Positions 7,049 to 27,703 of a stretch of 36,832 nt of DNA are shown piece by piece. The stretch covers positions 1 through 36,832 of the forward strand of contig CANQVV010000005.1 of the NCBI GenBank assembly GCA_947627385.1, in the 5' to 3' direction. The notes under the pieces were generated by a model. The model was not told the origin of the DNA. It searched no databases and was given only the letters and a program-made list of their open reading frames with translations. The first letter of the stretch is position 1, and every line of letters begins with the position of its first letter. This stretch comes from an uncultured Bacilli bacterium (GTDB lineage Bacteria > Bacillota_I > Bacilli_A > RF39 > UBA660). Made by a program: the position numbers and the translations under genes.

Positions 7049-8323
7049 TTATTTATCAATTGTTATTGTATACCTAATCTCTTTAACATCATTTTCTTTT
7101 ACTATACTAATACGATAATTATTAGCACGTAAATCATCTTCTAACTTATTAATAAGAACATTAGCTGTTGTCATATCAACTTCATTAGATAATGAAATAT
7201 CATTTTTAGACTCAGTTGGAGCTAAAAAATCTAACATTTCTATTTCTTCTGGTTCACTTTGAACATTATCTAGTGGTAATTTTGTAGTATTATCACTATT
7301 TTGTTCTTCAATCTTTTCTTTTGGTTCTTCTATAATGTTCTTTTCTAATTCTAATGTTTTTCCTGAATCATTGTCTTCATCTGTATCACTAGATACTAAT
7401 GGTACAACTGGGGCATCTAAATCTATTTTTGGTTGACCTTCTAAAATATTTTGAACTGGGGCTGTACTTTGAGTAACTTGTTCAGTGACTGGCTTAATAT
7501 TAGAATCTGGAACACCCATATTAACTGACTCATCTTCTAAGAAATTAAAGAACTTATTTGGCATTGGTTTTTGTGAATCATCAGTTGGATTTGTAACATT
7601 TTGATTATTAATTGGATTATTAACACTAACTATATCCTCAGCATTTTTTCTTATATCAGCAATATTTGGTACAGGATCAATAATAGGTATTTCATCACCA
7701 CTAGTAGTTTTATTCATAGTTTCTTTTATTTTTTTATCTAAATCTCTAACTGTTAATCTTTCATCAAGAATTGTCTTTAACCAATTAATTTGTTCTTCGC
7801 TACTACCTAGTTGAAGTAAACTTCTAGCATGTCTTTCAGAAATTTTATTTTCAATCAGTGCATTTTGAACTTCTTCTGGTAATGTTAATAATCTTAATTT
7901 ATTAGAAACCGCAGATTGACTTAATCCCATTTTTTTAGCTAATTCTTCTTGGGTTAAATATCCTTTATCTAATAATGCTTTATATGATTTAGCCTCTTCA
8001 ATTGCTGATAAATCTTTTCTTTGAACATTCTCAACAATAGCAACTTCGGCACTTTCATTATCATTCATTTGAGAAATAATAGCAGGAACACTCATTAAAC
8101 CAGCTAATTTTGCCGCTTTATATCTTCTTTCACCAGCAATTATTTCATACTTATCACCAAGGCGTCTTAAAATAAGGGGTTGGATAATCCCATGTTCTTT
8201 TATAGAAGCTGCTAATTCTTTTAATGAATTGTCATCAAAAGTTAATCGTGGTTGAAAACGATTAGGAATTATATCTTCTATTGGTATATTTATAACTTGA
8301 TTTTCTTGTGATGTCGTATTCAC
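7049..8323 (-). CDS. noc: ParB/Noc-family nucleoid occlusion protein
   Basis: ParB CTPase motifs (GERRYKAAKLAG, ENVQRKDLSAIEEA), HTH SQSAVSNKLRLLTLP, ISERHAR; Noc-like C-terminus; position next to rsmG-mnmG; cognate NBS palindromes in the window. Confidence 0.85.
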   Translation of the reverse strand: MNTTSQENQVINIPIEDIIPNRFQPRLTFDDNSLKELAASIKEHGIIQPLILRRLGDKYEIIAGERRYKAAKLAGLMSVPAIISQMNDNESAEVAIVENVQRKDLSAIEEAKSYKALLDKGYLTQEELAKKMGLSQSAVSNKLRLLTLPEEVQNALIENKISERHARSLLQLGSSEEQINWLKTILDERLTVRDLDKKIKETMNKTTSGDEIPIIDPVPNIADIRKNAEDIVSVNNPINNQNVTNPTDDSQKPMPNKFFNFLEDESVNMGVPDSNIKPVTEQVTQSTAPVQNILEGQPKIDLDAPVVPLVSSDTDEDNDSGKTLELEKNIIEEPKEKIEEQNSDNTTKLPLDNVQSEPEEIEMLDFLAPTESKNDISLSNEVDMTTANVLINKLEDDLRANNYRISIVKENDVKEIRYTITIDK

Positions 8324-14984: not shown

Positions 14985-15375
14985 AAGCCTTAAATGTCAA
15001 GAAAATTCCTGGTCATATAAGTATTTGTTAATATTTTGGTTAAAAAATTATAAATGTTATTAACTTTTTAGTTATCAACATTATTTTTGTTAGTAATTTG
15101 TTAATAATTCTTTACTTTTTTCTTGAAATATTCGGATAATTTTAAAATTATTAACATTAATAACATTTCATTAACATAAATTTAATGTTTAATTGTTAAT
15201 AAAGTTATAAAAAAATGTTGATAATGTTAATAACTTGTTTTAATATAGGTAATACCTAAGAAAATCGTGTGGATAACTTGTGGAAAACTATTATTCAATA
15301 ACTTTTTTCTTGTATTAAAATAGCATTTAAGTTAAAATGAAATTGGGATATATTTGGAAGATGGGGTGAGGTATT
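14985..15375. other. oriC: Chromosomal origin of replication (oriC) upstream of dnaA: DnaA-box cluster
   Basis: Consensus TGTGGATAA (15268-15276), TGTGGAAAA (15279-15287), TTATCAACA (15072-15080), TGTTGATAA (15216-15224), plus TTATTAACA/TGTTAATAA variants at 15099, 15148, 15194, 15225. Confidence 0.88.
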
Positions 15376-16743
15376 ATGAAGATGCACGAACTTTTTCAAA
15401 AATTTTTAGATACAATTGCTGAACAAGTTTCACCAGGCACATTTTCTGTTTGGTTTAAAGAATTAAAATTAATTGATATTGATGATAAAACTATTACCTT
15501 ACAAGTACCAATTCCAATTCATAAACAAATACTTAGAAGTCAGTATATGGATTTATTAGATGACTCAATATTTTCTTTAACTGGCATTAATTATGAATTT
15601 AAATTACTAACCGAAGATGAAGTTAAAGAACTAAAAAATACCGATACTAATGATGATCATGATGAACCAATTAAAAATGATGAAAAAAATGTTGAATGGA
15701 ATACTAATTTAAGACCAGAATTAAATTTTGATAATTATGTTGTTGGTGAATCTAATCGTCTTGCTTTTATTTCTGCAATGAATGTGGCTCAATCTCCTGG
15801 AACTATCCGTAATCCTTTATTTATTTATGGAAGAAGTGGCATTGGCAAAACTCATTTAATGCATGCAATTGGTAATTATATTACTGAACACTCTAATAAA
15901 AAAGTTTTATATACTACTAGTGGAGATTTTAAAGATGAATATGCTGGTATTTCTCGACAAGATAAAGGAAAAGATTCAATTAATTATGCAAATAATTTTA
16001 AAAATAAATATCGTAATGTTGATGTTTTAATAATAGATGATATTCAGTTTTTAGTCGGAGCTGAATTAACTCAACAAGAATTTTTCTATACTTTTGAATA
16101 TTTACATCAACATAATAAACAAATTATTATTTCTAGTGATAAAAGTCCTGATGATTTAAAGAAAATTGAAGAAAGACTTAGAAGCCGCTTTACTTGGGGA
16201 CTTCCTGTTGATATTTATCCACCAGATTTTGAACTTCGTTGTGAAATAATTAATCAAAAGCTAAAAAATACCAGTATTAAAGATAAAGTTAATAAAGATG
16301 TGGTGGAATATATTGCAAATGCTTGTCCAAATGATGTTCGACATATTGAAGGTACAATTAATCGATTACTAGCATATACAGCCATGATGATGCCAACTGT
16401 TATTGATTTAGATTTTGCCATTGAAGCTCTAAAAGATTATGTTAATGTGAATATTTATCAAGAAAATACTATTTCTCATATTCAAAAAGTAGTAGCGGAT
16501 TTCTTTAAAATTACAGTTGATGATTTAAAAAGTAAGAAAAAAAGTAATAATATTGTAAAACCACGACAGATAGCAATGTATCTTTGTCGAGTTGAAACCG
16601 AAGAAAACTTAGCAAAAATTGGTTTTGAATTTGGCGGTCGTGATCATTCAACTGTTATTGCAAGTTGTGAAAAAATTAAGGATGAACTTAAAAATAATGA
16701 AACATTTAGTAATTTGTTAAAAGAAATAAAATCTAAGTTATAA
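15376..16743 (+). CDS. dnaA: Chromosomal replication initiator protein DnaA
   Basis: Walker A GRSGIGKTHL, Walker B DVLIIDDIQFL, DnaA signature FGGRDHSTVIASCEKI. Confidence 0.99.
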   Translation: MKMHELFQKFLDTIAEQVSPGTFSVWFKELKLIDIDDKTITLQVPIPIHKQILRSQYMDLLDDSIFSLTGINYEFKLLTEDEVKELKNTDTNDDHDEPIKNDEKNVEWNTNLRPELNFDNYVVGESNRLAFISAMNVAQSPGTIRNPLFIYGRSGIGKTHLMHAIGNYITEHSNKKVLYTTSGDFKDEYAGISRQDKGKDSINYANNFKNKYRNVDVLIIDDIQFLVGAELTQQEFFYTFEYLHQHNKQIIISSDKSPDDLKKIEERLRSRFTWGLPVDIYPPDFELRCEIINQKLKNTSIKDKVNKDVVEYIANACPNDVRHIEGTINRLLAYTAMMMPTVIDLDFAIEALKDYVNVNIYQENTISHIQKVVADFFKITVDDLKSKKKSNNIVKPRQIAMYLCRVETEENLAKIGFEFGGRDHSTVIASCEKIKDELKNNETFSNLLKEIKSKL

Positions 16744-17982: not shown

Positions 17983-17997
17983 AAAATATCAAAAAAT

Positions 17998-18011
17998 ATT
18001 TCCCGGGAAAT
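17998..18011. promoter_or_regulatory. Noc-binding site (NBS), perfect ATTTCCCGGGAAAT
   Basis: Exact match to the known B. subtilis NBS consensus. Confidence 0.85.
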
Positions 18012-18035
18012 AATTCGACAAATTATTTCCTTTTT
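18006..18035 (+). terminator. dnaN intrinsic terminator overlapping the NBS
   Basis: GGAAATAATT-cgaca-AATTATTTCC-TTTTT. Confidence 0.8.
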
Positions 18036-18071: not shown

Positions 18072-18524
18072 ATGGTAAATTATTTAATTAATGAAAAAAC
18101 AATAGCAATTCGTAAAGTTAATAAAAAAACTATTATTTATGATGTTGATAATATAAGAGTTATCAACAAAAATATAAAAAATTTATTAAATATAAATTGT
18201 AATTTTTATGGTAGTAGTTTAGATGGAAGAATTAACAGTGCCAAAAAAATATTAAATATTAAGTATAGAGTACCATTTTTATTAGATGAATTAAATAATA
18301 TTATTTTAATTCCTTTAAATTCAATAAGAGATAATCATTGTCTATATTTAATTCAAAATAAAATAATTAATTATGAAATGGATCAACATTTGCTTAAAGT
18401 AATATGTTGTAATAAACATATTTTTTACTTAAAAACTTCAAAATATAGTTTTGAAAAATTATTAATAAATTCTTTTAAATTAAATAATCATTTAAAATGT
18501 TTAAAATTAAAAAATATTGTTTAA
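18072..18524 (+). CDS. comK: ComK-family competence transcription factor-like protein
   Basis: Alignable by eye to B. subtilis ComK: NCNFYGSSLDGR..VPFLLDELNNIILIPLNSIRDNHCLYL vs SCRFFGSSYAGR..PPIMVDPSNQIFLFPTLSSTRPQCGWI; YSFEKLLINSFKL vs NSFENQVYRTAWL. Strong AGGAGG SD. Confidence 0.8.
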   Translation: MVNYLINEKTIAIRKVNKKTIIYDVDNIRVINKNIKNLLNINCNFYGSSLDGRINSAKKILNIKYRVPFLLDELNNIILIPLNSIRDNHCLYLIQNKIINYEMDQHLLKVICCNKHIFYLKTSKYSFEKLLINSFKLNNHLKCLKLKNIV

Positions 18525-21639: not shown

Positions 21640-24117
21640 ATGATGAATCAAGAAAAAGATAAATTAATTGAAAATAATATAGTAAAAGAAATTAAAGATT
21701 CATTTATTGATTATTCAGTTAGTGTTATTATGTCGAGAGCAGTTCCTGATTTAAGAGATGGCTTAAAACCAGTTCATAGAAGAATTTTATGGTCAATGTA
21801 TGAATCTGGTTATACTCCTGATAAACCGCATCGTAAAAGTGCACGTATTGTTGGTGATGTAATGGGTAAATATCACCCACATGGTGATTCAAGTATTTAT
21901 GATGCAATGGTAAGACTTGCCCAAGATTTTAATTTTACTCATTGTTTAGTTGATGGTCATGGAAACTTTGGTAATATATCTATTCCACGTCCAGCAGCAT
22001 CACGTTATACCGAAGCTAGACTTTCTAAAATATCTTTGGAATTACTTAGAGATATTAATAAAGATACTGTAAATTTCGTTCCAAATTTTGATGAATCAGA
22101 AAAAGAACCAGAAGTATTACCATCTAGATTTCCTAATATTTTGGTAAGTGGTACTATGGGTATTGCCGTTGGAATGGCTACTAATATACCACCACATAAT
22201 TTAGGAGAGGTTATTGATGGTTGTGTAGCTTACATTGATAATCCAGACATTGATACAGCTGGGTTAATGCAATATATTAAAGGTCCAGATTTTCCAACTG
22301 GGGGATTAATTTTAGGCAATAGTGGTATTAAAAAAGCTTATGAAACAGGAAGAGGTACCATTACAATTAGAAGTAAAGCAACTATTGAAGAGAAAAATGG
22401 TAAAAATTATATCATTATTGATGAAGTTCCTTATGGTGTTAATATTACAGAATTAAAGGATAAAGTAGCAGAACTTGTTCATAATAAAATAATTGATGGC
22501 ATAGCAGATTATCATACAGATTTAAAAGATGGTTTAAAAATAACTATTACTTTAAAGAAGGATGCAAATCCCCAAGTTATATTAAATAATTTATATAAAC
22601 ATACTCAATTTCAAACAAGTTATGGAATTATTTTCTTAATGATTGATAATAAAGTACCTAGAACATTAGGTTTAAAAGATATAATTTCTAAATATATTAA
22701 TTATCAAGAAGAAGTAATTATTAGAAGAACTAGATTTGATTTAGATAAAGCTGAGAAACGTGTTCATATTTTAGAAGGATATAAAATAGCATTGGATAAT
22801 ATTGATGATTTTATCAAAATTATTCGTGAATCAGAAACTGACATTATAGCTAAGGAAACCTTAATGCAAAAATATGGCTTAACAGATATTCAAGCTGATG
22901 CTATTTTAGAATTAAAACTTCGTCGATTAACTGGTCTAGAAAGAGCAAAAATTGAAGAAGAATTAAAAGATTTATTACAAAAAATTGAAGAATATAAGGC
23001 CATTTTAGCATCAAGAGAAAAAATATTAAATATTATAAAAACTGAATTATTAGAAATAAAAGAAAAATATGCCGAAGATCGTCGTACAAAGATAGATATG
23101 ACTGCTATTGAATATATTGAAGATGAGTCATTAATACCTGAGGAAGATGTTATGGTAGTTTTAACTAATAAAGGTTATATTAAAAGAACAACAAATGATT
23201 CATTTAGAATTCAAAATCGTGGTGGAGTTGGTATTAAAGGTCTTACAACAAATGATGAAGATTATGTTGAACATTTAATTAATTTATCTACTCATGATTA
23301 TATTATGTTCTTTACTAATAAAGGAAAAGTTTATCGTATAAAAGGTTATGAAATACCAGAATTTAGTCGACAATCTAAGGGAATTCCAGTTATTAACTTA
23401 TTAAATATTGAGAAAGATGAAAAAATTAATTCTATAATTAAAATAAGTAAAAATGATGAATATAAATATTTATTATTTGCTACTAAAAAAGGAATTGTTA
23501 AGAAAACATTACTTACTGAATTTGAAAATATTAGGACTTCTGGTAAGATATGTATTAATTTAAATGATAATGATGAACTTATAGACGTTAAAAAAACAAC
23601 TGGAAATAATATAATTTTACTTGGAAGTAGTCATGGTAGAATGGTAAAATTTGCTGAAAATGAAATTAGATCTATGGGTAGAACGGCCACAGGTGTTCGA
23701 GGTATAAACTTAGATGGTGGAGAATGCATCTGTTGTGAAGTAGTTAACGATGATTCTATTATTCTTTTAGTTACAGAAAAGGGATATGGAAAACGTACAA
23801 AAGTTTGTGATTTTAGACAAACAAAGCGTGGTAGTAAAGGTGTTTTAGCTTTAAATGTTACAGAAAAAAATGGTAGTTTAATTGCCGCCCGTCAAGTTGA
23901 AGATGATAAAGCTGTTGTCATTATGACTAATGTTGGTATTACTATTAAATTACCTATAAATCAAATATCAATATTAGGAAGAGTTACCCAAGGATTAAGA
24001 CTAATTTCTTTACGTGATGGTCAAAAGGTTGCAACAATTAGTATTGTTGATAAAGAAGATGAAAATGACGATCAAAATATAGAAATTTCTGATGATAATA
24101 AAGAAATATCTGACTAA
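21640..24117 (+). CDS. gyrA: DNA gyrase subunit A
   Basis: [10 protein letters not shown]-type motif ([15 protein letters not shown]), C-terminal GyrA-box QTKRGSKG. Confidence 0.98.
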
Positions 24118-24132
24118 GATGTTTCTTTTTTT
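24100..24132 (+). terminator. gyrA intrinsic terminator overlapping the stop codon
   Basis: AAGAAATATCT-gacta-AGATGTTTCTT followed by T tract (one U-G pair). Confidence 0.7.
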
Positions 24133-24146
24133 ATTTCCCGGGAAAT
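24133..24146. promoter_or_regulatory. NBS, perfect ATTTCCCGGGAAAT
   Basis: Exact consensus. Confidence 0.85.
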
Positions 24147-24251
24147 AAAATTTTGCCGAATTTTCATAATTTGCATTTTTTTATAAATTATTTATCTAAA
24201 TTAAAAATTTTATATTTTATTAGTAACCATATTAAATTTTTATTTAAAAAT

Positions 24252-24265
24252 ATTTCCTGGGAAAT
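24252..24265. promoter_or_regulatory. NBS-like ATTTCCTGGGAAAT
   Basis: One central mismatch from NBS consensus. Confidence 0.7.
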
Positions 24266-24359
24266 ATTTTTTTGCAAAATTTTAATAATTGGTAAATTTA
24301 TTTAAAAACTTATTTTAAATATTTAATATAAAATAATTAATTTAAAAATTTATACTCAA

Positions 24360-24375
24360 TGTTTCACGTGAAACA
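24360..24375. promoter_or_regulatory. parS: parS site TGTTTCACGTGAAACA (within 22-bp palindrome 24357-24378)
   Basis: Exact match to Spo0J/ParB parS consensus. Confidence 0.93.
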
Positions 24376-24445
24376 TTGAAGTTACAATAAATATAATATT
24401 AAAAAAATAAATTTAAAGTATATTATGATTTTAATCTTATTAAGA

Positions 24446-24461
24446 TGTTTCACGTGAAACT
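24446..24461. promoter_or_regulatory. parS: parS site TGTTTCACGTGAAACt
   Basis: 15/16 match to parS. Confidence 0.88.
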
Positions 24462-24477
24462 ATAAATATTAACAAAT

Positions 24478-24491
24478 ATTTCCCAGGAAAT
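24478..24491. promoter_or_regulatory. NBS-like ATTTCCCAGGAAAT
   Basis: One central mismatch; reverse complement of the 24252 site. Confidence 0.7.
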
Positions 24492-24499
24492 ACTATTAA

Positions 24500-24515
24500 T
24501 GTTTCACGTGAAACA
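24500..24515. promoter_or_regulatory. parS: parS site TGTTTCACGTGAAACA (core of 34-bp perfect palindrome 24491-24524)
   Basis: Exact parS consensus. Confidence 0.93.
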
Positions 24516-24589
24516 TTAATAGTAAACATTACAAATAAAAATCAATTTAATTAATTGCTTATAAAATATAAATATGATATTATTAATTT

Positions 24590-24666
24590 GCACAACAAAT
24601 ATGTCGTAACCTGGTCAGAGTTGGAAGACAGCAGCCACATCGATCTCTATTTGTGTGTGCTTTTTT
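24590..24666 (+). ncRNA. ffs: Signal recognition particle RNA (small bacterial 4.5S type) with terminator
   Basis: Apical motif CCTGGTCAGAGTTGGAAGACAGCAGCC; GCACAACAAATA pairs with TATTTGTGTGTGC, then T6; classic position near tadA/dnaX. Confidence 0.93.
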
Positions 24667-24681
24667 AATGGAGATGTAATT

Positions 24682-27666: not shown

Positions 27667-27669
27667 ATT

Positions 27670-27683
27670 ATTTCCCGGGAAAT
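27670..27683. promoter_or_regulatory. NBS, perfect ATTTCCCGGGAAAT
   Basis: Exact consensus, 3 nt after recR stop. Confidence 0.85.
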
Positions 27684-27703
27684 ATAATTTATTAGGTGAT
27701 TTA

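Follow-up and report, generated by a model that had tools for sequence, protein, structure and literature searches.

The spacer between gyrA and ffs, the small SRP RNA gene, in a 36,832-nucleotide stretch of DNA from an uncultured Bacilli bacterium of the RF39 lineage (the whole stretch is referred to as the window) contains three parS palindromes and three palindromes of the Noc type (NBS), interleaved in the order N-N-P-P-N-P (N, NBS; P, parS). The genus comprises uncultured gut Bacilli, and 34 of its 35 species with a comparable locus, i.e., 33 relatives and the window, have a mixed NBS and parS array in the same spacer. From these sequence comparisons we consider it probable, if by no means secure, that the gyrA–ffs spacer is a composite centromere at which the Noc-like protein acts as an origin-restricted second clamp beside ParB, while a nucleoid-occlusion role of the array and of this Noc appears doubtful. 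A motif scan confirmed the three parS and three NBS sites and their interleaved order as given in a preliminary description of the window, including the single central change in each of two NBS. The sites and the genes which frame them are as follows.

15376–16743, + strand: dnaA; the likely oriC, indicated by a DnaA box at 15268, is some 9 kb distant from the array
21640–24117, + strand: gyrA, left border of the spacer
24132–24147, no strand: NBS, no mismatches to the 16-mer TATTTCCCGGGAAATA, first element past the gyrA stop
24251–24266, no strand: NBS, one mismatch, central CG to TG (CCTGGG)
24360–24375, no strand: parS, no mismatches, within the longer palindrome CAATGTTTCACGTGAAACATTG
24446–24461, no strand: parS, one mismatch, at the final base
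24477–24492, no strand: NBS, one mismatch, central CG to CA (CCCAGG)
24500–24515, no strand: parS, no mismatches, within ATTAATGTTTCACGTGAAACATTAAT
24579–24675, + strand: ffs, small SRP RNA gene (Rfam RF00169, 55.7 bits), right border of the spacer

The spacer, which opens at the gyrA stop (24117) and closes at the SRP RNA, measures 461 bp and has a G+C content of 15%. Within it the NBS at 24477 lies, start to start, 31 bp from the preceding parS and 23 bp from the following one. The parS sites near oriC match the ParABS consensus TGTTTCACGTGAAACA, from which the NBS motif differs at four of 16 bases. Over the whole window the chance expectation for parS at up to three mismatches is 0.19, and the NBS 14-mer at the same tolerance was found eight times versus 2.0 expected by chance. 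The central changes to TG or CA (CCTGGG/CCCAGG), as at 24251 and 24477, represent the usual NBS variant of the family. Two other identities for the NBS were tried and rejected: the sole terminator-like match coincided with the first of the parS palindromes, and matches resembling promoters were no more frequent than at shuffle level.

Pattern searches also covered the assembly of the window (1.16 Mb in 66 contigs, 71% complete); a scan of the entire genome for both motifs had been proposed as a check on the array. In the whole of this assembly parS at up to two mismatches occurs only at the three spacer sites, and NBS at up to one mismatch only at five sites, three in the spacer and two outlying ones which had escaped the preliminary description.

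17997–18012, no strand: NBS, perfect, 15 bp past the dnaN stop
27669–27684, no strand: NBS, perfect, 3 bp past the recR stop

Counterparts of these outlying sites, at about -6.1 kb and about +3.4 kb, are present in some relatives only. Between dnaN and recF there is also a gene for a ComK-family protein (18072–18524, + strand; PF06338, 64.7 bits, E 1e-17), an unusual location for this competence regulator.

Conservation of the array was analyzed across the window and 36 further species of the genus; the gyrA locus was obtained in 34 of the 36, so that 35 arrays could be compared. The 34 mixed arrays hold one to seven NBS and two to seven parS each, and the sole exception, species G002, has a parS-only array. 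Sites scattered evenly through the genome, with no conserved cluster in relatives, would have spoken against the array as a unit, and this was not what we found. When the 35 genomes were searched with a combined pattern at up to one mismatch, a threshold which would overlook degenerate dispersed NBS, 219 of the 226 parS- or NBS-like sites lay within about 8–10 kb of the array, and of the seven genomes which have a site outside this region, five have a gyrA contig that ends early. Exact matches to the combined pattern numbered 101 for parS and 95 for NBS, and none of the 14 possible mixed forms was seen among these 196 sites; this absence of hybrids indicates that two separate specificities are maintained. 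The positions of the NBS turn over between species, while the order with NBS on the outside is kept.

This order was compared with 5000 label shuffles, with the reservation that the shuffle fractions are not probabilities, because the species are related. Of the 35 arrays, 34 open with an NBS (shuffle mean 14.8, maximum 25) and NBS stand at both ends in 22 of 35 (mean 4.8, maximum 13), while 12 arrays start with an NBS and end with a parS. Close neighbours, at most 41 bp apart, comprise 28 NBS-parS pairs versus a single like-like pair (NBS-parS shuffle mean 17.9, maximum 27). Reducing the set to one species per distinct order (n = 21) left the end effect in place and weakened the close-pair effect, with 0.5% of shuffles as high. 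The 5'-most NBS may be a single inherited site across species. Alternation of NBS and parS beyond chance was considered and dropped (86 switches versus a shuffle mean of 88), and no clear helical period was seen in the NBS-parS spacings when the list was inspected by eye.

To place the mixed state in a wider frame we used related uncultured Bacilli, sampled from rabbit, goat and other sources. The gyrA–ffs spacer of these wider relatives (loci L148–L199) carries parS-only arrays with up to 12 parS in less than 2 kb, and the mixed state is therefore taken as derived. In a GyrA tree it maps to one branch which covers the whole genus, with one loss (L145, i.e., G002). Outside the genus the mixed state recurs at L195, and L183 too has NBS within the spacer; in both they were apparently gained separately. 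In sister lineages the NBS lie kilobases from the spacer, several of them within coding sequences, dnaX and recF among these (genes named there by motif or start sequence). Across the whole order NBS are few, 0–11 per genome, and in other families of the class they are mostly absent, both counts being made at up to one mismatch so that degenerate sites would escape.

The presumed reader of the NBS is encoded in the window itself.

7049–8323, - strand: noc-like gene, 424 aa, with ParB_N (PF02195), HTH_ParB (PF17762) and a ParB-like C-terminal domain, beside rsmG

In B. subtilis noc likewise adjoins rsmG. The best match of the product is a solved Noc (196.6 bits versus 180.2 for Spo0J), it carries the ParB_N motifs GERR and EN.QR, and both model and sequence match the solved Noc; a fold search was confirmatory only. 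With the NCBIfam model TIGR04285 it scores 276.3 bits, the highest of its family matches but below the curated cut-off of 315; two other Noc proteins of the genus score 255 and 271 bits, and the ParB of the window's own genome 232.5. At the positions equivalent to 173, 179, 184 and 201 of Caulobacter ParB it has Q-K-T-R, and the pattern Q-K-[S/T/Q]-R holds in 36 of 37 species, G002 being the exception; the reported Noc code is Q-K-K-R, of which one permissive lysine is enough (PMC7383237). Noc was found in all 36 further species searched, and the second paralog, ParB, was also matched in 35 of them (G028 gave one match only).

Two features set the Noc of this genus apart. An N-terminal amphipathic helix is absent from all 37 proteins when their N-termini, with inferred start codons, are compared: a short polar N-terminus, in most cases (V/M)NTESQVLNVPIED, leads straight into the conserved NRFQPR of the fold. 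A membrane helix at this position is present in all Noc homologues examined elsewhere (PMC4331003), and its removal impairs nucleoid occlusion (PMC8429893). The other feature is a long variable linker with two conserved motifs, PNKFFNFLEDE..NM and EEIEMLDF, which are near-invariant in the genus, with F258, F259, M269, E362 and L364 invariant. These motifs occupy residues 255–269 and 359–366 of a linker otherwise low in conservation. The first is modelled by AlphaFold2 as a helix (257–268) with an F-F-x-F-L face, at low confidence (pLDDT about 56), and its C-terminal side is acidic. The linker motif is common to some sister genera and missing from more distant Noc; it could bind the membrane or a protein partner.

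The species which lost the NBS is also the one whose Noc has changed. In G002 the recognition helix reads GISLMAVENK versus the usual GLSQSAISNK, the only altered helix in the genus set, and its neighbour in the GyrA tree (L142, i.e., G007) combines the common form of the helix with four NBS. Loss of sites and change of helix thus coincide in one species. A search of the G002 array for a palindrome replacing the NBS returned only parS and one AT-rich palindrome. A broader association was found in 80 other genomes of the family, a set enriched for NBS-free genomes by including every one from the order-wide scan, with Noc scored as present if its best match was higher than any ParB score: 11 of the 13 genomes without Noc have no NBS, versus 16 of the 67 genomes that encode Noc (Fisher p = 6e-5). 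Several family members (G098, G195, G230, and G231) encode a Noc with an intact Q-K-x-R helix and have no NBS at up to one mismatch, so that a tight coupling of Noc to NBS does not hold throughout, and a helix change was rejected as the general cause of NBS-free, Noc-positive genomes.

The parA-parB pair of the window's genome lies on another contig (C25), and in relatives with joined contigs parB is about 32–49 kb from gyrA. This ParB has a solved Spo0J as its best match (191.5 versus 149.6 for Noc), an N-terminal LGRGLEQLF motif and R173, and the residues R-L-[N/K]-S were found in all 18 genus proteins typed at all four positions. Position 201, which contacts the base that distinguishes parS from NBS, is serine in 21 of 21 genus proteins (L014 and L230–L249), while of 18 proteins from elsewhere in the family 13 have glycine; S201 also occurs in some ParB from outside the genus (G075, G084, and G126). 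Extant ParB proteins are reported to have G201 without exception, and T or S predominates at this position in dual-specificity variants, although S201 is also found among parS-specific variants (PMC7383237). A third ParB_N protein in the genome (L016, contig C28, 617–1012, 131 aa) adjoins an HTH gene and is phage- or plasmid-like. Of 12 genomes of the genus examined, 11 have FtsZ and SMC matches above cut-off and none has a MinD match above it, weak matches being mainly ParA.

These findings bear unequally on the two halves of the joint centromere and nucleoid-occlusion loading hub proposed in the preliminary description. The compact, conserved mixed cluster and the presence of ParB- and Noc-type proteins with residues that match, position 201 of ParB excepted, uphold the first half; the second fares badly, as Noc is without the N-terminal helix in 37 of 37 species and the NBS, scanned at up to one mismatch, are not dispersed, so that both nucleoid-occlusion features of B. 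subtilis are absent (PMC4331003; PMC8429893). For the same two reasons Noc is most likely a second clamp of the origin region only, and two clamp proteins probably load at the array. ParB would nucleate at parS and the noc product at the interleaved NBS, both would close into the predicted CTP-dependent clamps and slide into the same origin-proximal DNA, and Noc may bring a partner or an activity to the segregating origin through its conserved linker motifs. The NBS at the array edges and beside parS may also shape the spreading of ParB.

A conventional Noc, which tethers the origin to the membrane by another route (e.g., through the FFNF helix of the linker) and prevents division over origins, seems unlikely, if still a serious contender. 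It would attribute the confinement of the NBS to the small genome and the lack of MinD, and it draws on the presence of FtsZ without MinD, on the low-confidence helix 257–268 with its F-F-x-F-L face, and on the joint delay of midcell Z rings by Spo0J and Noc in B. subtilis (PMC6852036). Yet the N-terminal membrane helix is missing in every one of the 37 species, the linker motif is acidic at its C-terminal side and absent from more distant Noc, and in B. subtilis the timing role hinges on the NBS being dispersed. The arrangement of the arrays suggests another alternative, that NBS-bound Noc is mainly a boundary or roadblock which limits or channels ParB sliding and not a separate clamp with an output of its own; to this we assign a low probability. 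DNA-bound roadblocks do halt ParB sliding in vitro, but bypass has been seen as well (PMC9242446). The outermost 5' position of the NBS in 34 of 35 arrays, their presence on both sides in 22 of 35 and the 28 to 1 excess of NBS-parS close pairs would suit a fence; the species, however, may be non-independent through inheritance of a single 5' NBS, 12 arrays open with NBS and close with parS, and the outlying NBS 3–6 kb away are unlike a tight fence. A clamp-forming Noc, moreover, departs from its site and would hence be a poor fixed barrier.

It is improbable that a ParB of relaxed specificity loads at both palindromes, the NBS then serving ParB as well as Noc and Noc being a competitor. Serine at position 201 throughout the 21 genus proteins, where 13 of 18 other family members have glycine, is in keeping with this idea, as is the prevalence of T or S at 201 in dual-specificity variants against an otherwise conserved G201, but S201 also belongs to parS-specific variants (PMC7383237) and to the non-genus proteins G075, G084, and G126, and the lack of hybrid sites suggests two sharp specificities. 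The NBS could finally be neutral by-products, i.e., parS copies which drifted towards the NBS form through mutation or conversion, or else palindromes of an unrelated family, given that the motifs differ at just four of 16 bases and have one spacer in common; this we hold to be highly improbable, since there are no intermediates among the 196 exact sites, the N-outside order survives the turnover of NBS positions, the NBS were lost together with the Noc helix change, and NBS are rare without Noc. Compared with these alternatives the composite centromere with an origin-restricted Noc remains our preferred reading. A bolder form of it, in which Noc has turned from a chromosome-wide nucleoid-occlusion factor into a centromere component, two CTPase clamps of sharply different specificity at interleaved sites build the partition complex together, NBS set its edges and the specificity residue of ParB co-evolves, is put forward only tentatively.

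The array has parallels in known systems and departs from each of them. The Noc-NBS system of B. subtilis and S. aureus has the same NBS palindrome, the same Q-K-x-R residues and the ParB-type clamp fold predicted for the Noc of the genus, but B. subtilis has about 70 dispersed NBS (PMC4331003) and S. aureus 41 loci (PMC5540599), whereas the genus has 0–7 NBS in the array and at most two nearby, and a Noc which has a long linker with new conserved motifs in place of an N-terminal membrane helix. The Spo0J-parS ParABS system shares with the genus the canonical parS 16-mer near oriC, ParA beside ParB, LGRGLEQLF and the presence of SMC; in the genus, however, the parS are packed into one spacer and interleaved with the predicted sites of a second ParB-family protein, and ParB has S201 instead of G201. 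The parS-only relatives (L148–L199) have the same spacer, nearly all of them without NBS there. In the literature searched we found no report of a mixed NBS and parS array and nothing relevant on parS or Noc in RF39 or Tenericutes.

Noc and ParB are a textbook example of paralogs which parted after a duplication, with different sites, places and jobs. This genus combines both sets of sites in one spacer and has kept them there through heavy turnover, without a membrane helix or dispersed NBS. The array therefore opens a way to study the function of Noc apart from nucleoid occlusion, the sharing of a single DNA track by two clamp families or their competition for it, and the upkeep of specificity with sites 23 bp apart, with G002 providing a natural loss-of-site comparison.
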